Assembly: GCA_015179125.1 (NCBI GenBank)
Contig: WHVA01000498.1
Coordinates: 1 to 64,000, forward strand
Direction of reading: 5' to 3'
DNA: 64,000 nt
Source of the DNA: Gautieria morchelliformis
Lineage: Eukaryota; Basidiomycota; Agaricomycetes; Gomphales; Gomphaceae
Shown here: positions 9,085 to 58,262 of the stretch, in pieces
Position numbering within the stretch: the stretch's first letter is position 1
Layout of the letters: each line of letters opens with the position of its first letter
Program-made: the position numbers and the translations under genes
The notes under the pieces: generated by a model
Seen by the model: only the letters and a program-made list of their open reading frames with translations
Database searches by the model: none
Told to the model about the DNA's origin: nothing

Positions 9085-9248
9085 GGGGGAGTGTTGGGGT
9101 TATTGGGGATAAGCTAGAACGCAGGCAGGGTAGAGAGGAGGTCGGGCAGGGTATTGTTTCATGTCAGCAGCCTCAGGCATATGCCGAGGCCGTATATAGT
9201 GCAACATCGTAGTTAGCGGCACCTCAGTGAACTACCTCGTTCGCTGAG

Positions 9249-9303
9249 GTGCGTACTCTTTTCTATTGACGTCTAGATATAGAAGTACTCACTATGTTGA
9301 TAG
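9249..9303 (+). other. Intron-like segment 1 in LTR-E
   Basis: 55 bp, starts GTGCGT and ends TGATAG. It separates H1 from m1, while the downstream copy at 9335-9373 has H and m joined exactly at this point, as if spliced. Length matches introns of the host genes in this window. Confidence 0.7.
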
Positions 9304-9316
9304 CTTCTATATCTAG

Positions 9317-9373
9317 GTACAGTACTAATACGTACTCAGTGAACTACCTCGTTCGCTGAGCTTCTATATCTAG
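9317..9373 (+). other. Intron-like segment 2 in LTR-E containing the spliced H-m copy
   Basis: 57 bp, starts GTACAG, contains TACTAATAC and ends ATCTAG. Bases 9335-9373 repeat 9223-9248 plus 9304-9316 without a mismatch, lacking the 55 bp between them. Confidence 0.65.
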
Positions 9374-9394
9374 CTACTGCGCATAACCGCTACA

Positions 9395-16061: not shown

Positions 16062-16559
16062 TGTAGAGGACAGGAATTATAGGCAGTAGGTATGGACTTG
16101 TTGCTCAAAAGAATAGACTAGAAAACAATTCACTCTCTCAGTGAATTTAGTTGTCACTATAAATATATTATACACTACCTAGAAAACAATTCACTACAGA
16201 GGATTTCTAGGTTAATAAATCGAAAGAATGCTAGACTAATTTACTTGCCTCTCTCAGTGAATTTAGTTGTCACTGAGAGAGGGGGAAAACTGTTTCACTG
16301 CGCATGTACTACTACCCGGCCCTTTAGCGCCCAAGAGCTCGCGCGTCGAAGTCGTTTCAGACTCCGCTGGGTGCGGCCGCTTGTGAAAGTAGGAATAACA
16401 AGATGAAATGGAGAGATAGGGAGTGAGTGGAAAATTTCGAAAATAACCAGAGAAATGGATGCATGATACAAGAACAATATGAGAAGAAATTGAGAAACCA
16501 CACAACAAATTGGATATATTATGCTTGATTTTGGTGCAGGAGCATAAATGCACCCAACA
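16062..16559 (-). mobile_element. Solo LTR-A
   Basis: 498 bp, the same length as the LTRs of the intact element at 27115-32373, flanked by the exact duplication GGTAT (16057-16061 and 16560-16564). On its own sense strand it has H1 (16249-16274), a GC-AG segment of 55 bp (16194-16248), m1 (16179-16193) and a 61-bp segment (16118-16178) ending in the joined H-m copy. H and m differ from the other A LTRs, yet its two internal copies agree. Confidence 0.93.
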
Positions 16560-19174: not shown

Positions 19175-19662
19175 TGTTGGGTGCATTTATGCTCCTGCAC
19201 CAAAATCAAGCATAATATATTCAATTTATTGTGTGGTGTTTCAATATTTTCTCATACTGTTCTTGTACCATGCATCCATTTCTCTGCTTATTTTCGAAAT
19301 TTTCCAGTCACTCTCTATCTCTCCATTTCATTCTGTTGTTTCTACTTTCACAGGCGGCTGCACCCAGCGGAGTTTGAAATGACTTCGACGCGCGAGCCCT
19401 TGGGCGCTAAAGGGCCGGGTGCAAGTATATGCCTTCTGAGACAGGATTACACTCCTCTCTCAGTGACAATAAATTCACTGAGAGAGGCGAGTAGTATTCT
19501 TCATATTTACATAGCATGTTGACTGAAAATCATGTAGTATATTTGATTCTAGGTATTGTATTAATACATCAGTGACAATAAATTCACTGAGAGAGTATAT
19601 TTGATTCTAGCTTTCTAAGAACTCTACCGAACCTTCCCTGCCATAGCCCCTAGTTGCTAACA
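19175..19662 (+). mobile_element. 5' LTR of A2
   Basis: Contains H1 19461-19486, a 51-bp GC-AG segment 19487-19537, m1 19538-19552 and a 58-bp segment 19553-19610 ending in H2-m2 (19570-19610). Here both m copies read TATATTTGATTCTAG. Confidence 0.85.
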
Positions 19663-23920: not shown

Positions 23921-24408
23921 TGTTGGGTGCATTTATGCTCCTGCACCAAAATCAAGCATAATATATTCAATTTATTGTGTGGTGTTTCAATATTTTCTCA
24001 TACTGTTCTTGTACCATGCATCCATTTCTCTGCTTATTTTCGAAATTTTCTAGTCACTCTCTATCTCTCCATTCCATTCTGTTATTTCTATTTTCACAGG
24101 CGGCTGCACCCAGCGGAGTTTGAAATGACTTCGACGCGCGAGCCCTTGGGCGCTAAAGGGCCGGGTGCAAGTATATGCCTTCTGAGACAGGATTACACTC
24201 CTCTCTCAGTGACAATAAATTCACTGAGAGAGGCGAGTAGTATCTTTCATATTTACATAGCATGTTGACTGAAAATCATGTAGTGTATTTGATTTTAGGT
24301 ATTGTATTAATACATCAGTGACAATAAATTCACTGAGAGAGTGTATTTGATTTTAGCTTTCTAAGAACTCTACCGAACCTTCCCTGCCATAGCCCCTAGT
24401 TGCCTACA
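23921..24408 (+). mobile_element. 3' LTR of A2
   Basis: H1 24207-24232, a 51-bp segment 24233-24283 (GCGAGT donor), m1 24284-24298, a 58-bp segment 24299-24356 ending in H2-m2 (24316-24356). Both m copies read TGTATTTGATTTTAG, two bases different from both copies in the 5' LTR. A TATATG box lies at 24171. Confidence 0.85.
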
Positions 24409-27114: not shown

Positions 27115-27612
27115 TGTAGAGGACAGGAATTATAGGCAGTAGGTATGGACTTGTTATTCAAAAGAATAGACTAGAAATCAATTCACTCTCTCAGTGAATT
27201 TAGTGGTCACTATAAATATATTATACACTACCTAGAAATCAATTCACTACAGAACATTTCTAGGTTAATAAATGCAAAGATTACTAGACTAATTTACTTG
27301 CCTCTCTCAGTGAATTTAGTGGTCACTGAGAGAGGGGGAAATGTGTTCCACTGCGCATGTACTACTACCCGGCCCTTTAGCGCCCAAGGGCTCGCGCGTC
27401 GAAGTCATTTCAGACTCCGCTGGGTGCAGCCGCTTGTGAAAGTAGGAATAACAAGATGAAATAGAGAGATAAGAAATGAGTGGAAAATTTCGAAAATAAC
27501 CAGAGAAATGGATGCATAATACAAGAGCAATGTGAGAAGAAATTGGAAGGCCACACAACAAATTGGATATATTATGCTTGATTTTGGTGCAGGAGCATAA
27601 ATGCACCCAACA
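27115..27612 (-). mobile_element. 3' LTR of A3
   Basis: On the sense strand: H1 (27302-27327), 55-bp GC-AG segment (27247-27301, GCAAGT donor, TTAAC branch-like site, TGTAG end), m1 (27232-27246), and a 61-bp GT-AG segment (27171-27231) ending in H2-m2. H1=H2 and m1=m2 exactly. Confidence 0.92.
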
Positions 27613-27625
27613 CGCCCCCTCAAGC

Positions 27626-30600
27626 TTAATATATTCCGATTTGCTCGTTGAGAATCTTCACTCTAGGACTAGGAAGTCCTTTAGTGAGGATATCTGCCAA
27701 CATTTGTTCGGTTGGCAAATAAACGAGCTTGGCTTGTTGATTTTTGATTATATCTCGAAGGAAATATAATCGGATGTCGAAGTGCTTGGTTCTCGTGTGT
27801 TGTTGGGTGCCATACGTGATGGCAATGGCTGATTGATTGTCTGAATAAACTTGGATGGGTCTGTTCAGTGGTTGGAATATTTCAGAAATAAAATGGCGCA
27901 TCCAAAGAGCCTCTTTGCCCGCATGGGTCAGGGCGACGAATTCGGCTTCAGTTGATGAGAGGGCTACTATCGACTGTTTCTGGCAACTCCATGAAACAGT
28001 GCCTCCATCAATCTGAAATAAGTATGCCGAATACGAACGCCTATGACTCTGTGAACCCCAATCCGCATCTGAATACCCCATCAAGCCGTCTTGATTTCTT
28101 CCAAGTGTGAGCTTGTAATGCTTCGTGCCTTTCAAATATTTGAAGACACGTTTGACTGCATTCCAGTGTGTGCCACCTGGATTTTCAAGGAATTGCGAGA
28201 GTAATGACACCGCAAATGCAATGTCAGGTCGAGTGGCTACAGCCGCCCACATCAGTGATCCTATAGCTTGCCTGTATGGAAACTTCGACATGGCTTTCTT
28301 GCCTCTCTCTGTAGAAGGACATTGGTCTTTAGATAATTTTACGGCTGGATCAAGAGGCGTAGCATAAGTCTTTGCATCTTCGAGATTAAATTTTTTGATG
28401 ATCTTCTCGATGTATGCAGGTTGTGAAATTGCAATAGTTTTCTTCTGCCAGTCTCTTTCGATTTTGAGATTCAATAGCCAATGAATCTCGCCTAGATCTT
28501 TCATACTGAAGACCTGAGCAAGATCTCGTTTGACTTCGTCCAGGACTGATTGATTCTCAGCTGTGATGGTAAGGTCGTCCACAGCTGTTGCAATGATCAC
28601 ATGCCCCTTTCCGCCACGTCTATAAAATACAGCCCCATCTGTGGCTGACGTAGTGAATCCTAACTTGTGGAATTCACCACTTAGACGTTTATACCATTCT
28701 CTTCCAGATTGCTTGAGGCCGTAGAGTGCTTTCTTCAAAAGTAGCACTTCGCCTTTGTCTCCAGACTCATATCCATACGGCTGCTTCATGTAAATAGGTT
28801 CGGGCAACGTAGCATTGAGGTATGCATAGTCTACGTCCATTTGATGGATAGGCCAGTCATTCCTAGCAGCGATGGCGCATATGATCCGTAGGGAGGATAA
28901 CCGAGCAACAGGTGAGTATGTCTCATCATAGTCGACTCCAAACTTCTGTGTGAAGCCTTGGGCGACCATTCTCGATTTAGGTACTATTGGTTTCCCTTCT
29001 GGATTACGCTTCCAAAGGTAGACCCATTTATTACCGACAATATTGGCTCCAGGAGGTGGTTTGGCTCGTTCCCACACTCCCTTGTCGATTAGGGCCTCAT
29101 ACTCTTTGTCCATTGATTTCTTCCATATAGGATTATTCAGAGCTTCGTCTGCATTGCTAGGTTCAATTTGACTCAAATCCGGCGCCTTGTTATTGTTTTG
29201 ACCGTCGGTTAGAAACGCACTGATGGCACACTCATAGCTACTGATGCCATCAATCTCGGAGGATAATTCTTGGTCGAATAAAACTTCTTTATGGTCCTCA
29301 ACGTCCTCGTAAGCTAGCGTAGTCATATGTGCGCCAGCTTGTCTCTGGGTTTGAGATCTTGTTACGGGACCTGATGGGGCCGGCTGCACTTGTTGTTGAC
29401 GGATCCTTTCGCTTCTCCTTATCGGTTCAGCTTCTCTAGGTCTGTCATCAACTCCCTGAATAGGTTGCAGCTTTTCAAGATATTCCTCTGGTGCACTTTC
29501 ATCAATTTCTTCGATCTTTGCCTCTTCGCTGACTAAGCGACCGGGCACAGGCACTGATGCCGGAATGGCCTTCTTCTCTTCTTTAGACGTAGGTAGCTTG
29601 GATTCCTCAATAGAAATGATTGGGACCTTTCCCTTCTTCATCTCTGAATCAAACACAACATTCCGCTCGACAGAAACTTTGTGCGAGTCAGGCCAATAAA
29701 CATAATGACCATGGCTCTGCGCAGAAATTCCTATCCACCGAGCTCTCTTGGCACGAGCTGCCAATTTATCTCCCTGAGTGATTTTAACGTAAATTTCAGT
29801 TCCCCACGCGTGAATGTCTTTGAGATTCGGTTTTTCATGGTGAATCATCTCGTAGGGCGTTTTATCTGGTAGAGCTCTTGTATGCGTCCTGTTCCTAAGA
29901 TAATTGGCATGCTGTATCGCATAGCCCCATAATATCTTAGGAAGGCCTGATTCTAGCAGCATGGCACGAGTTCTCTCAGTGAGAGTTCGGTTCAGGCGTT
30001 CCGCAACACCATTGGACTCTGGTGTGTCGTGTACCGTCAACTGATGCTTCGTGCCTTGTTTGGCTAGATGCTGTTCGAATTCAGAGCTCGTATACTCGCC
30101 CCCTCGATCAGAAACAAGTGCCTTGATGTGCACATTTCTCTGTCGAAGCATTAAAGCCTCGTAGAGCTTGTACTTTGAGAATGCTTCTGATTTGTTCGCC
30201 ATGAGATAGATCACCGATTCTCTTGAGTAATCATCGATAAAGGAGACATAATATGACTTCTTATCGATCGTGAGGTGTCTTGCAGGTCCCCAGACATCAG
30301 AATAAATTCTGTCACCGAATTTTGATGTTCGGTCTCTGGGTTCTCGAGGAAGAGGTTTGCGCGCAATCTTGGCCTGAATACACGCATCACAGACAATTCT
30401 ATCGCCTGTGGAGCTCAGTTCAATGCCCAATATCATGCCATGATTTAATAGATGTTGTAGGGACTTCTGCGAGATGTGCCCCATCTTTTGATGAATTTCC
30501 ATGGCAGATAAACACATATGGGCTTGAGCACTTGGTGACTGGAGGTCTAGTCGATATAAGCCATTGACTTTCGGTGCTTGCATCAATACTTTTCGAGCAG

Positions 30601-31870
30601 CATTAGATATTGTGCATTTCTGGCCACCGAGTCGAATGTCGTAGCCAGCATCATCGCACCGACCGATCGAGACGAGGGTAGCAGCAATTTTAGGTGCATA
30701 GTATGTATCTTGCAACGTGACTTCTACTGTTCTATCTCCAACCTTATTGGATAATACGAGCAGTCCTGAGCCGAAGGCATCAAAGGTACCTTTGTTGGCT
30801 GCTCGGATAGTCCTCGGCTGTGAGAATTGACAGTAGTTCCTCAATAAATTTTTGTGAGGAGTCATATGCGATGTCGTTCCGGTGTCGAGTATAACTATAA
30901 CTCCTGAGGATGTGCTCAAATTGAAATTAGAGCACTCGTCGAAATTGGTGAAGGCAAGATGCCCATCACCACTTTCCTCAGAAGTAGACTCTTCCTCGGC
31001 AACATTCGCTTTTGCTTTACCCTTCTTCTTCTTCTTGCCTTTGGCTTTCTTCTTCTGACGTGGTCCTTGACCTTCTTTACCACCTCCTTTAGCCCAGCAA
31101 TTTTCGATGGAATGTCCAGGCTTTTTGCAGTTGGTGCATACATGCGCCTTCTGCCCCTTCTGGTCCTTCTTAGTAGATGAACCAATAAACACCTGCTCTT
31201 CTTGCGGGAGTGTTTTCTTCCTGTCATACTGAGCCTTTAGTACCCTAATAATATTATCAGGGACCAATGGCATCCCGCATTCTTCAAGCGAAGTGGTAAG
31301 GGCGTTCATGACTGCCTCATAGGATGGTGGAAGTGATGCAAGGATGATGTCCATGAATTCTTCTTCGGAAACTCTGGCTCCCATCTCATTAAGACGAGCA
31401 TATAGGTCTTGGGCCTTGTCCAAATGATCTCTCAAGTCTCCATCCTCAGGACATCTCATACTGCGGAGTTGTCTCTGCAGGCTGGTGAGGACCATCTTGG
31501 GCTTTTTGGTCATTTCATTGACCAGTGCATCCCAAGTCTCTTTTGCTGTCTTCTGCTTCTGTAGCATCAGGGCTAATGACTCTGACACTGAGACGATGAT
31601 TTGGGTCTTGGCTTGTCCTTCTCTAGCAAGGTATCTCTCCAGCTTCTCCTCGGCCTTATCCATCTGAGTTTCCTCAGCTTCTGTTAGAATATGGCCTGGG
31701 GGCATGACTGGAGGATCAGGAGGTCGAGTGACTCTCCCTTCTACATGCTTGAGTAGATTTTTGGACTCGAAATAGCTGATGAGAGTAGCTCGCCACAATG
31801 GCCAATTACTTCCATCAGTAGCAAGCTTCTCAACACCCAATAGCTTCTCAGAAGTGTCTCCGGGGCCCAT
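27626..31870 (-). CDS. Copia A3 Gag-Pol polyprotein (1414 aa)
   Basis: A complete single-ORF copia polyprotein that would make particles, process itself, reverse transcribe and integrate the element. Visible: UBN2-type gag (residues ~1-235), CCHC knuckle CTNCKKPGHSIENC (~244-258), protease VILDTGTTSHMTPH (~325-340, active site DTG), pre-integrase HQKMGHIS (~460), integrase with FIDDYSR (~545), VSDRGGEYTSSEF and TPESNGVAERLNR (D,D,E pattern), RT with RMVAQGFTQKFGVDYDE, GLKQSGREW and TAVDDLTI (~1097; Ala replaces the usual Tyr/Phe before VDD), and RNase H with SDADWGSQ (~1267), STEAEFVA and YSDNQSAIA. The start codon lies 5 nt from the LTR inside the primer-binding site. No stop or frameshift was found. 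Confidence 0.96.
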   Translation of the reverse strand: MGPGDTSEKLLGVEKLATDGSNWPLWRATLISYFESKNLLKHVEGRVTRPPDPPVMPPGHILTEAEETQMDKAEEKLERYLAREGQAKTQIIVSVSESLALMLQKQKTAKETWDALVNEMTKKPKMVLTSLQRQLRSMRCPEDGDLRDHLDKAQDLYARLNEMGARVSEEEFMDIILASLPPSYEAVMNALTTSLEECGMPLVPDNIIRVLKAQYDRKKTLPQEEQVFIGSSTKKDQKGQKAHVCTNCKKPGHSIENCWAKGGGKEGQGPRQKKKAKGKKKKKGKAKANVAEEESTSEESGDGHLAFTNFDECSNFNLSTSSGVIVILDTGTTSHMTPHKNLLRNYCQFSQPRTIRAANKGTFDAFGSGLLVLSNKVGDRTVEVTLQDTYYAPKIAATLVSIGRCDDAGYDIRLGGQKCTISNAARKVLMQAPKVNGLYRLDLQSPSAQAHMCLSAMEIHQKMGHISQKSLQHLLNHGMILGIELSSTGDRIVCDACIQAKIARKPLPREPRDRTSKFGDRIYSDVWGPARHLTIDKKSYYVSFIDDYSRESVIYLMANKSEAFSKYKLYEALMLRQRNVHIKALVSDRGGEYTSSEFEQHLAKQGTKHQLTVHDTPESNGVAERLNRTLTERTRAMLLESGLPKILWGYAIQHANYLRNRTHTRALPDKTPYEMIHHEKPNLKDIHAWGTEIYVKITQGDKLAARAKRARWIGISAQSHGHYVYWPDSHKVSVERNVVFDSEMKKGKVPIISIEESKLPTSKEEKKAIPASVPVPGRLVSEEAKIEEIDESAPEEYLEKLQPIQGVDDRPREAEPIRRSERIRQQQVQPAPSGPVTRSQTQRQAGAHMTTLAYEDVEDHKEVLFDQELSSEIDGISSYECAISAFLTDGQNNNKAPDLSQIEPSNADEALNNPIWKKSMDKEYEALIDKGVWERAKPPPGANIVGNKWVYLWKRNPEGKPIVPKSRMVAQGFTQKFGVDYDETYSPVARLSSLRIICAIAARNDWPIHQMDVDYAYLNATLPEPIYMKQPYGYESGDKGEVLLLKKALYGLKQSGREWYKRLSGEFHKLGFTTSATDGAVFYRRGGKGHVIIATAVDDLTITAENQSVLDEVKRDLAQVFSMKDLGEIHWLLNLKIERDWQKKTIAISQPAYIEKIIKKFNLEDAKTYATPLDPAVKLSKDQCPSTERGKKAMSKFPYRQAIGSLMWAAVATRPDIAFAVSLLSQFLENPGGTHWNAVKRVFKYLKGTKHYKLTLGRNQDGLMGYSDADWGSQSHRRSYSAYLFQIDGGTVSWSCQKQSIVALSSTEAEFVALTHAGKEALWMRHFISEIFQPLNRPIQVYSDNQSAIAITYGTQQHTRTKHFDIRLYFLRDIIKNQQAKLVYLPTEQMLADILTKGLPSPRVKILNEQIGIY

Positions 31871-31875: not shown

Positions 31876-32373
31876 TGTAGAGGACAGGAATTATAGGCAG
31901 TAGGTATGGACTTGTTATTCAAAAGAATAGACTAGAAATCAATTCACTCTCTCAGTGAATTTAGTGGTCACTATAAATATATTATACACTACCTAGAAAT
32001 CAATTCACTACAGAACATTTCTAGGTTAATAAATGCAAAGATTACTAGACTAATTTACTTGCCTCTCTCAGTGAATTTAGTGGTCACTGAGAGAGGGGGA
32101 AATGTGTTCCACTGCGCATGTACTACTACCCGGCTCTTTAGCGCCCAAGGGCTCGCGCGTCGAAGTCATTTCAGACTCCGCTGGGTGCAGCCGCTTGTGA
32201 AAGTAGGAATAACAAGATGAAATAGAGAGATAAGAAATGAGTGGAAAATTTCGAAAATAACCAGAGAAATGGATGCATAATACAAGAGCAATGTGAGAAG
32301 AAATTGGAAGGCCACACAACAAATTGGATATATTATGCTTGATTTTGGTGCAGGAGCATAAATGCACCCAACA
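31876..32373 (-). mobile_element. 5' LTR of A3
   Basis: Same structure as the 3' LTR: H1 32063-32088, GC-AG segment 32008-32062, m1 31993-32007, GT-AG segment 31932-31992 containing H2-m2. The two intron-like segments would lie in the 5' UTR of the element transcript. Confidence 0.92.
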
Positions 32374-41649: not shown

Positions 41650-41788
41650 TACTGATCCTACATCACGGGGGAGTGTTGGAGTTCGATGTGGTTCGTCTAT
41701 ATGGACCCACACATGCTGAGTCCATATAGTTCAGATTCCACATCTCCGCTTCTCTCCTCAGTCATTCATGCCACTCTGAACGTCTGAG

Positions 41789-41844
41789 GTAAGAAAGCTC
41801 AGCTACTACTTCGCTATCTTACCAATTACTTACTCGCACTGTAG
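41789..41844 (+). other. Intron-like segment 1 in LTR-D
   Basis: 56 bp, GTAAGA ... CTGTAG. Absent from the second copy of the surrounding sequence 15 bp downstream of m1, where its flanks are joined precisely. Confidence 0.75.
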
Positions 41845-41859
41845 CCTAACGTAGTGCAG

Positions 41860-41912
41860 GTAATACATAGTCGTTCATGCCACTCTGAACGTCTGAGCCT
41901 AACGTAGTGCAG
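41860..41912 (+). other. Intron-like segment 2 in LTR-D containing the spliced H-m copy
   Basis: 53 bp, GTAATA ... GTGCAG, with CTAAC 14 bp before its end. Its last 39 bp duplicate H1+m1 exactly. Confidence 0.65.
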
Positions 41913-41972
41913 ACTCCAATAGTTTCCATCTGGCGACAGATTTTTCGTGTCCATGCAGCAAGACGATGTTGG

Positions 41973-52904: not shown

Positions 52905-54780
52905 GCCACACACTAGAAATAATGAGCATGATGTGTGTCAGGCTGTGAGTGTGCTAGAAATAATCAACATGATGTGTGTCAGCTAGTGCGCTTGAAATAA
53001 TCGACATGATGCACGTCAGCCATGAGCTTGAAATAATTGACATGATGTGTGGGCCTGAAATATTTGACATGATGCGTAGGTGCACTTGAAATAATTGGCA
53101 TGATGCACGTCAGCTGTGAGCTTGAAATAATTGACATGTCAGCTGTGAGCTTGGAATAGTTGACATGATGCGAGGGCCTGGAATAGTCGACTTGATGCGT
53201 GCAGCCCTGAGCATGCTTGAAATAATCCACATGATGTGTGTCAGGCCGTGAGCACACTTGACATAATCAACATGATATGTTGTTATGTTTGGGTCAGAAA
53301 GGACAGTGGCTTCAATGTATGTGTTGCACCCCCAATGAACTATCATCCTAAGTATTTCAGAATGGAAGTCAGAAGTCAGAAGCGACAGAGGTAGAGAAGG
53401 GTTCAAGAATCGTTCTAAGTCAAGAGTCAGAAATCGAGTTGGAGGTCAGAGGAAGTACTCGCTGTGCTAAGAACAGGAGATGATGCAAGGGAGTCAAGTA
53501 TCGAAGTTGATTATCTGATTGCAGAATAAAGCGCATACATGAGTGGGTTTTATACAAAGAGCTGGAGCAACATGTAATGTAACGTAAGTTGTACTTAAGA
53601 CTCAACCCAAAGGCCAAGCTGAGGTTTGGGAACAGAGGGCTTTGCTTCAACTAATTTTGGGAAGCAGGCTTGGGAAAAGATTCAGCTTCAAGCCAAGGTT
53701 TGGGAAACAAGATTAGACTGAGGGGAAGATAATATGAGAATCTAAGTCAATATCAGGACTGAGGATTTAGCATACATGACAGGGGGTTTATATACTAATT
53801 GCAAGGAGCGGAAAGAGGGCATCAATGCCCGCATCAAGCAGATAAGAATGATAAGGGGACCATCATCAGGAATGGAACAGGACTATGTAGGAAAGGAAGT
53901 CAGGGTGAATGATGAACCAAAGGAAACCCAAGTTAAGCCAAGAAGGGTTCCCGAGCAAGGTCCAAGGCCGAGGCCTCAGGTCCAGACTCAGGAACAGGTC
54001 TTAACAGCATGTTCCAATGAAAGTGGAAGTCAGATAAGACATACGGGGTAAGTATCTAATCTTGAACAAAGAACTACAGGGTTGCAGGGTAGAGTCAAGT
54101 ACAATAGGCAAAATAACAAGGGGAACGGAACATCTACTTGACAAACGGAACAATGAGGCTCCTGATGCTTCAGACATAGGGTCTTGCTGTGCTGTGAGTC
54201 GAGTTTGAAGGGTCTGTATAATAGAGTCAAATGGGGAACAGATATAACAAGGAGGGGAACATTGGAGTTATCAGAATCTTGGAAAGGAAGCAGAACTGAG
54301 TATCCGAAGGTGGGATTGGCATGGTTGTAACATACATATCAACTGTGAGCTTGAAATAATTGAATGCATGTCAGGCTGTGAGAATGATTGAAATAAGTGA
54401 CATGATGTGTGTTGGGGCATGAGCCCAAAATAGGACTTGATGATGTGTGTTAGCAGTGAGCACACTTGAAATAATCAACATGATGCATGAGCCCAAAATA
54501 GTTGACTCAATGTGTGTCAGGTGTGAGCACGCTTGAAATAATTGACATGATGTGTGTCAGCCATGAGCCTGAAATAGTCGGCATGATGTGTGTCAGCCAT
54601 GAGCCCAAAATAGTCAACATGATAGGTGTCGGCCATGAGTGCACTTGAAATAATCAACATGAGTGTCAGCCATGAGCCTGCAATAGTTATGCTGGTGCAT
54701 GCCAGGCTTGAGCACAAATAGTAGACCTGCTGCATATCAGGCATGAACATGCTAGAAATAGTGGACATGATGCTTTGACC
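52905..54780. repeat. Minisatellite of ~38-bp degenerate units, split by an insertion
   Basis: Units of the type TTGAAATAATCGACATGATG then TGTGTCAGCCATGAGC recur at 52905-53280 and again at 54333-54780, with variable unit length. The block between them is an LTR-H-like insertion. No coding potential. Confidence 0.8.
53281..54332 (-). mobile_element. Diverged solo LTR-H relative inside the minisatellite
   Basis: TGTTATGTTTGGG ... GGTTGTAACA. It shares with LTR-H the ordered blocks CCCCCAATGAACTATC, CTGTGCTAAGAACAGGAGAT, GATTATCTGATTGCAGAATA and TTTTATACAAAGAGCTG, but is longer and diverged. Flanks TATGT and TACAT are not an exact duplication. Confidence 0.6.
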
Positions 54781-57773: not shown

Positions 57774-58262
57774 CGTCGTGCGGGATGGAAGCTGCGCGCT
57801 TGCATCCCACCGCCGTGCGGGCTGCAAGCTGCGCGACAGCGTCCCACCCGACGCTGGTGCGGCCCCAGATTGGCCACCAGCGTCGTGCGGGATGGAAGCT
57901 GCGCGCCTGCCGCCGTGCGGGCTGCAAGCTGCGCGCTGCCGTCCCACCCGACGCTGGTGCGGCTAGTGATGGGCACTAGGCCGCGGCTTAGCCCGGGCCG
58001 AGCCGCCAAAGCCCCGGCCCACCCACGGCCCCCTCCTTCTCCTTCACACCTGCACCCACCGCGCCCTTCCCCCCAGCCTCCTTCACCCCCGCGCAGGCCG
58101 CGGCCCAAGCCGGGCCGGCTGTTAAGGGCCTGGCTCAGGATTTGGCAAGCCCGAGCCGGGCCGTGCCCATCACTAGGTGCGGCCCCAGATTGGCCACCAG
58201 CGTCGTGCGGGCTGCAAGCTGCGCGCCTGAGTCCCACCCGACGCTGGTGTGGCCCCGAGCTG
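57774..58262. repeat. GC-rich tandem array (~100-107 bp units)
   Basis: Unit 1 is 57774-57880; unit 2 is 57881-57963 continued at 58184-58200; unit 3 is 58201-58262 (partial). Each starts CGTCGTGCGGG and contains GCTGCAAGCTGCGCG and CCCACCCGACGCTGGTG. Unit 2 is split by a hAT MITE. Confidence 0.8.
57964..58175. mobile_element. hAT MITE (212 bp)
   Basis: Ends TAGTGATGGGCAC / GTGCCCATCACTA with the exact 8-bp duplication GGTGCGGC (57956-57963 and 58176-58183). The ends resemble those of the larger hAT element at 55489, so a related transposase may mobilise both. GC-rich body, no coding capacity. Confidence 0.92.

Follow-up and report, generated by a model that had tools for sequence, protein, structure and literature searches.

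Several families of LTR retrotransposons in the Gautieria morchelliformis genome very probably carry one or two spliceosomal introns inside their LTRs, which would be restored by transfer of strong-stop DNA to a copy of the exons that is already joined. In the two-intron form the LTR reads X1-i1-Y1-i2-U5, where X1 and Y1 are putative exons, i1 and i2 putative introns, and i2 ends in the joined copy X2Y2. The layout, its edges, the concerted evolution of the two copies, the intron-bearing insertions and a set of aberrant forms can be read directly in the genome. The initial annotation of the window (the whole 64,000-nucleotide stretch of contig WHVA01000498.1 analysed here) had proposed two introns whose removal leaves an RNA equal to the tail of the LTR, and had considered the arrangement functional. 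That reading is supported by the concerted evolution of X1Y1 and X2Y2, by repeat edges that coincide with splice sites and with a YAG at TATA distance, by two LTRs from which exactly i1 is absent, and by the presence of introns in both LTRs of most paired elements. The mechanism by strand transfer is our own model and was absent from the annotation.

LTRs in the window

LTR-E, a 3' LTR at 9092..9394 on the forward strand, starts with TGTTGG, ends with GCTACA and is directly preceded by GGGGGAG. Its TATA box (9193..9198) lies at -33 relative to the putative start site, the A of TCAGTG, where the putative first exon X1 (9226..9248) begins; identity between X1 and X2 reaches back to 9223. Then follow putative intron i1 (9249..9303; 55 bp, GTGCGT..GATAG), the putative 13-nt exon Y1 (9304..9316) and putative intron i2 (9317..9373; 57 bp, GTACAG..CTAG). 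The last 36 bases of i2 are the joined copy X2Y2 (9338..9373; X2 9338-9360, Y2 9361-9373), which would act as R in the first strand transfer, and a 21-bp U5 (9374..9394) completes the LTR. LTR-D (41674..41921, forward strand) is likewise a 3' LTR directly preceded by GGGGGAG. It has a TATA-like box at 41723..41729 (TATA at -35), X1 at 41760..41788, putative i1 at 41789..41844 (56 bp, GTAAGA..TGTAG), Y1 at 41845..41859 and putative i2 at 41860..41912 (53 bp), which ends in X2Y2 (41869-41912; X2 41869-41897, Y2 41898-41912); X1 and X2 differ by one mismatch. These coordinates confirm the order that the initial annotation had given for LTR-E, namely X1 (there H1), a GT-AG segment, Y1 (there m1) and a second GT-AG segment ending in the joined copy, and its statement that LTR-D has the same order. 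Upstream of LTR-E, gag and RVT_2 domains score above their cut-offs and rve scores 29.7 bits, below its cut-off of 32.6; the region before LTR-D matches gag and a portion of RVT_2.

Family A shows the same layout in all of its LTRs, as had been claimed; there are five rather than four, with the addition of the LTR at 31876, and i1 starts with GC, not GT. A solo LTR on the reverse strand (16062..16559), with GGTAT on both flanks, is made up of X1 (16249-16274), i1 (16194-16248, GC-AG), Y1 (16179-16193), i2 (16118-16178, including X2Y2 at 16118-16158) and U5 (16062-16117). Two LTRs lie on the forward strand. The one at 19175..19662 is followed by AGGGTTATGGGCCC and contains X1 (19462-19486), i1 (19487-19537), Y1 (19538-19552) and i2 (19553-19610, with X2Y2 at 19571-19610). 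The one at 23921..24408 is preceded by GAGGGGGTG and contains X1 (24208-24232), i1 (24233-24283), Y1 (24284-24298) and i2 (24299-24356, with X2Y2 at 24317-24356). On the reverse strand, a 3' LTR (27115..27612; X1 27302-27327, i1 27247-27301, Y1 27232-27246, i2 27171-27231) and a 5' LTR (31876..32373; X1 32063-32088, i1 32008-32062, Y1 31993-32007, i2 31932-31992) enclose an open frame of 1414 amino acids on the same strand (27626..31870), which matches, in two pieces, Retrotran_gag_2, Pol_BBD, gag_pre-integrs, rve, SH3_retrovirus and RVT_2. These two LTRs show one difference over 502 aligned bases. Their outer flanks (GAACC and CGTTT) do not match, so the pair may be recombinant.

The Y sequence of family A is TGAATTGTTTTCTAG in both copies of one LTR, TGAATTGATTTCTAG in both copies of another and TATATTTGATTCTAG in both copies of a third. 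The LTRs at 19175 and 23921 resemble the ends of one element; their outer flanks, GACAA on one side and GAGAA on the other, differ by a single base. They have two different Y types, each mirrored within its own LTR, and our model therefore requires recombination or conversion between subfamilies at this place. Both Y types recur elsewhere in the genome among the matches listed for joined X-Y, the 23921 type at several places, and recombination between subfamilies would be enough to account for the pair. At 15 neighbouring same-strand family A places about 4.7 kb apart, paired by eye among the matches listed, the Y type agrees.

A scan of both strands of the window for X, a gap, Y and then joined XY returned 12 clusters. 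Seven fit GT/GC...AG and correspond to LTR-E, LTR-D and the five family A LTRs; the other five, at about 53-54.7 kb and 57.8 kb, are without splice sites. The same scan of 40 first-order Markov-shuffled windows returned no cluster. The split-then-joined layout is genuine, greatly exceeds chance expectation and is widespread across the genome.

Some other features of the window were noted. The region at 53031-54680, caught by the scan without splice sites, consists of short repeats with a spacing of 94-182 bp and resembles a repeat array that has diverged. A word of 16 bases from the cluster at 57816 occurs as its reverse complement at 591-790 of locus L071, in a 70-bp-spaced repeat beside the LTR of another family. 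Positions 97-343 and 1759-2005 are the arms of a perfect inverted repeat, each 247 bp long and separated by 1415 bp; they may be the terminal repeats of a DNA transposon. Comparison of the window with Rfam gave no match at gathering score, and a tRNA scan with the bacterial code found no tRNA in it.

Spread of the layout and its edges

The genome-wide comparison was done in the 122-Mb assembly. For LTR-E, 40 places were scored out of 194 candidates; 39 have the two-intron form and one (L036) has a doubled unit. For D and D-like LTRs, 25 of 30 fetched loci were aligned, leaving aside five that are partial or interrupted (L056, L058, L059, L062 and L070). Of these 25, 21 have the layout, 19 as parsed by script and two by eye (L043, which was badly trimmed, and L065, which has a changed donor); L063 is doubled, and L054, L055 and L057 are without both introns. 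The joined X-Y pattern of family A occurs at 853 places with up to two mismatches, and the reversed pattern at none. Eight family A places, chosen because they looked odd among those listed and hence not a random sample, comprise two without i1, four with an extra unit and two ordinary LTRs.

We also surveyed copia elements more widely, using the 3' flanks of 40 of 150 listed reverse transcriptase hits (the scored part of 2723 candidates). The two-intron form was present in 14 flanks; another 15 show a one-intron variant, X|GT...X-AG|U5, with introns of 48-51 bp and one changed donor. Five flanks (L080, L085, L087, L089 and L097) read X-U5 without an intron: L080 and L085 are intronless members of families that also have the one-intron layout, and the other three may never have had an intron. 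The remaining six were unclear or without the layout, among them L084, which leaves its stretch; its LTR, fetched as L119, has the one-intron form. Twenty more stretches from one one-intron family and its relatives, picked from 40 listed for divergence or odd match length, gave 11 one-intron LTRs, six intronless ones (L123-L128) and three that were truncated. Among gypsy elements, two of eight 3' flanks from 150 listed RVT_1 hits, both of one family, have the one-intron layout, and six are without it, some of which may stop short of the LTR. All 12 further copies of this gypsy family that were fetched (of 40 listed) have one intron, some with an altered X2. In four of 14 copies (L144, L145 and L147-L158) about four bases are absent at the end of X2, and the other copies have two possible AG acceptors four bases apart at this point; a choice of alternative acceptor could thus have been inherited.

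The copies counted here are not all independent. The outer flanks of L001 and L003 are 98.5% identical and those of L043 and L044 100% identical (about 400 bases, two contigs each), which makes each pair a single insertion site represented twice, and the assembly may hold both haplotypes. The initial annotation had described the families as sharing the architecture without homology. This was not established: the two-intron families have AGT...CTGAG-like X ends in common, and one old origin followed by concerted divergence is therefore possible. The one-intron copia and gypsy cases are better, though tentative, hints of recurrence.

The edges of the repeats were analysed after excluding the family A oddities and E_L031 and collapsing near-duplicates, which left 79 of 103 rows for the 5' edge and 39 for the 3' edge. 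Over the 79 distinct LTRs, X1 and X2 are identical in 97% at the A of a YAG; stepping upstream from this A, the first three bases give 59, 57 and 48%, and positions beyond them 4-42%. At the other end, Y1 and Y2 agree in 100% at each of their four final bases and in 0% at the base that follows; this 3' edge is partly by construction, as the script demanded a terminal AG in Y1 and a following G. A TATA-like motif is found at -33 in all 38 E LTRs used; in the other LTRs it usually falls between -31 and -36, and -29, -39 and -43 were each seen once. The scan also accepted TACATG, the motif of the 16062-type family A LTRs. It gave no TATA match in seven D-like LTRs with a 28-base X. In the gypsy family, TATA lies about 44 bp above the repeat by hand count. 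The -31 to -36 spacing suggests that X1 may start at the cap site, with YAG as the initiator; the gypsy distance and the seven LTRs that gave no match count against this. In the AGTGAACT families, X1 always has C directly before this A (49 LTRs parsed), and seven X2 copies have G there, some of which belong to LTR pairs; a copied cap guanine is one possible reason for the G.

In the two-intron form, X measures 22-36 bp and Y 11-16 bp. The putative introns have GT/GC...AG ends, which were part of the search criteria, and fungal-like lengths: 49-59 bp for i1, 49-70 bp (mostly 51-61) for i2, and the 48-51 bp noted above for one-intron copia elements, in which two of 26 rows have a changed donor (AT). 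Across families E, D and A, i1 starts with GTGCGT, GTAAGA, GCAAGT or GCGAGT, and i2 with GTACAG, GTAGAG, GTAATA, GTAGTG or GTATTG; the i2 donors look weaker than the i1 donors. The branch motif YTRAY is not enriched in i1 (five of 13 clusters, against 6.5 by shuffling), which counts against our model, and is mildly enriched in i2 and the one-intron linkers (nine of 19, against 4.8 expected; 51 of 2000 shuffles). We considered a hairpin in X as a common feature and rejected it as not general.

Concerted evolution and the record of transposition

Within one LTR, X1Y1 and X2Y2 differ little. As the two-intron parse tolerated at most four mismatches in X and three in Y, the following rates are capped: 24/1326 (1.8%) in E, 17/646 (2.6%) in D and D-like LTRs, 0/170 (0%) in A, 18/242 (7.4%) in F-related LTRs, and 7/476 (1.5%) and 9/330 (2.7%) in other copia LTRs. 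When partners were permuted between LTRs, none of 2000 permutations was as low as observed in any set except two of family A, where 35 of 2000 (five LTRs) and 9 of 2000 (six odd copies) were; the mis-parsed A_L137 was left out of this analysis. Of the 76 mismatches, 53 are transitions, 38 of them at a position that is CpG in one copy, the pattern that post-insertion decay would leave. The permutation keeps relatedness in, and mixed families make it easier to pass; for these reasons, and because of the parse limits, changes mirrored between the two copies carry more weight.

Such mirrored changes are frequent. The D analysis covers 18 of 19 rows, and columns 0-4 in it are one length change rather than independent sites. 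Here, 14 of 16 states shared by at least two LTRs are mirrored in all members or all but one, against two of five singletons. The middle of Y in D and D-like LTRs is ACGTAG, ACGCAG, TCACAG, CTATAG, CTACAG or TTACAG, mostly equal in both copies. E has two mirrored indels in Y, a deletion and an insertion of one base each. The E analysis covers 32 of 39 rows and nine states. Three of these states are mirrored in part of their members (6/7, 5/7 and 5/7), and two shared states and four singletons are mirrored in none, which counts partly against our model; one of these unmirrored shared states is that of L012 and L014, which are one element by target duplication. In the gypsy family the test is weak, because X scarcely varies. 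X1Y1 and X2Y2 evolve together, with many inherited changes in both and most singletons in one.

LTRs start with TGTT and end with ACA in E and A and with AATA in D; a purine tract (GGGGGAG or GGGGAG) precedes 3' LTRs, and GGTTATGG-like sequence follows 5' LTRs. Both LTRs were among the loci for 17 elements, 12 of E and five D or D-like. Both i1 and i2 are present in both LTRs of 14 of these, and 5-bp target duplications are exact in 15 of the 17 and one base off in two. The 15 LTR pairs that were compared are 96-100% identical. Introns in both LTRs, together with target duplications, mean that the introns survive retrotransposition. The other three elements are an intronless one on C249 (both LTRs), one on C454 (L049 and L057, target duplication CTGAC) with introns in its 3' LTR but none in its 5' LTR, and one on C293 (L020 and L036, ACTCG) with a doubled 5' LTR unlike its 3' LTR. 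Slippage in plus-strand strong-stop synthesis could have altered the 5' LTR in the latter two. A one-intron element on C192 (L123 at 27369, and 31982) looks similar to them.

Aberrant forms are informative. L135 and L136, probably one subfamily, lack exactly i1 (X-Y-i2-X-Y), a precise presence/absence polymorphism among copies, although the absence could predate the gain of i1. L131-L134 have an extra i2-X-Y, L036 and L063 a doubled unit, and X-Y-U5 or X-U5 LTRs were also found. The X-Y-i2-X-Y and extra i2-X-Y forms had been predicted from our model before they were found. Most of the aberrant forms could stem from slippage between repeats; the exact absence of i1 could not. In L105, part of the hairpin is repeated inside X2 but not inside X1, as if copying had slipped inside X.

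An alternative that we consider unlikely is plain tandem duplication, in which X1 and X2 are kept alike by gene conversion or replication slippage and GT-AG results incidentally from the duplication of AG|GT. Exchange between short direct repeats is possible, and the X-U5, doubled and extra-unit LTRs resemble products of slippage, as do the different 5' and 3' layouts of the C454 and C293 elements. However, conversion would have to act separately on a Y of 11-16 bp and an X of 22-36 bp, skipping i1 precisely at GT/GC and AG; the 5' edge would have to coincide with a TATA-spaced YAG; and the i1-less L135 and L136 are no repeat-slippage product. The mirrored Y difference between the LTRs at 19175 and 23921 is what conversion inside an LTR after insertion would yield, but with the 23921 type present elsewhere, recombination between subfamilies suffices. 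It is very unlikely that the introns are real and spliced but restored in another way, such as recombination of cDNA with genomic LTRs. The C454 element, whose target duplication encloses a 5' LTR without introns and a 3' LTR with them, is what conversion by spliced cDNA could give, but as a routine process this would erase the introns present in both LTRs of the 14 pairs. Finally, that X and Y are RNA motifs (packaging or dimerisation hairpins) kept by selection without splicing is scarcely credible: X self-folds in several families, but only five of 12 X-Y or X-U5 sequences fold with z < -0.7 and none with z < -1.9, and motif selection poorly explains the edges and the same substitutions and indels in both copies.

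Replication model and known systems

In canonical replication, the 5' end of the RNA is copied into strong-stop DNA, which is transferred to the corresponding repeat at the 3' end. If its 5' leader were spliced to X-Y-U5, an ordinary LTR would be stripped of its introns by this route. From the features described above we infer a start site, splicing, a polyadenylation position and a strand transfer that would avoid the loss. Transcription would start at the A of the YAG initiator, that is, at the start of X1, and i1 and i2 would be spliced from the 5' LTR transcript to give cap-X-Y-U5. The 3' LTR of the same RNA, for reasons that the model does not provide, would stay unspliced and end at or just after X2Y2; X1-i1-Y1-i2 would thus be transcribed leader in the 5' LTR and U3 in the 3' LTR. 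The minus-strand strong-stop cDNA, templated by the spliced 5' end, would read U5-Y-X and anneal to X2Y2 rather than to the split X1...Y1, and its extension through i2, Y1, i1, X1 and U3 would yield a new LTR with both introns. The X2Y2 of the new LTR would be rewritten from the parent's spliced X1Y1 in every cycle, which would explain the concerted changes. Y would end in AG because it is at once the end of an exon and a 3' splice site. The one-intron form would use the same route with X alone. In terms of this model, the doubled unit (L036, L063) would reflect both introns kept in cDNA and the extra i2-X-Y (L131-L134) the retention of i2; L135 and L136 would stem from removal of i1 by splicing within the 3' LTR, or represent a state before its gain; and X-Y-U5 and X-U5 would result from transfer to X1 or from slippage.

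This is probably a general way for LTR retroelements to keep leader introns. As one-intron and two-intron forms occur in several copia families and one gypsy family of a single genome, it may have arisen more than once. The likely benefit is that an intron near the cap raises mRNA yield. Intron-dependent expression is reported for Cryptococcus (PMC3744415), and strand transfer of the kind proposed here would explain how elements could exploit it. If the model is true, genomic RNA that is spliced and yet transmits its introns adds a step to the scheme of LTR replication. The erasure of introns by reverse transcription is a textbook sign of an RNA intermediate. Because every insertion would record the spliced 5' end of its parent, strand transfer would become readable from genome sequence, and the order X, GT..AG, Y, GT..XY provides a simple scan for other genomes.

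Searches of open-access papers, matched by words and not by meaning, listed no LTR of this kind, in agreement with the initial annotation. One unrelated phrase match is a lentiviral vector named LTR1 with an intron in its leader (PMC5542766). Another, likewise unrelated, is a paper that reportedly deals with conjugative and retrotransposable elements in gene transfer (PMC4256276).

The elements share with Ty1/copia the copia domain order (Retrotran_gag_2, rve, then RVT_2, in the two pieces of the family A frame), 5-bp target duplications and a GGTTATGGGCC-like sequence after 5' LTRs. LTR retrotransposons of the Drosophila copia type are primed by a half-tRNA, and we take the GGTTATGGGCC-like sequence to be complementary to the anticodon arm of initiator tRNA-Met. 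Unlike Ty1/copia, the LTRs described here have one or two GT/GC-AG segments within the portion that is putatively transcribed, and they repeat the split exons in joined form. Host genes can gain introns by tandem duplication of a segment containing AG|GT, where splicing restores the original sequence. This route fits the one-intron form as an origin, but predicts no repeated rewriting of one copy. Introns in LTR elements as such have a precedent in plant Ogre and EVADE, whose body introns, according to one paper (PMC12786077), generate subgenomic RNAs. Introns are functional there and putatively spliced here, but our elements have them in the leader within the LTR, and it is the spliced RNA that would serve as the template. 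The retroviral R, according to another paper (PMC12789967), is a repeat after the cap and before the poly(A) tail that is used for the first template switch. In contrast, the 5' R of the elements described here would come into existence only after splicing, and their 3' R would be a separate copy that is already joined.
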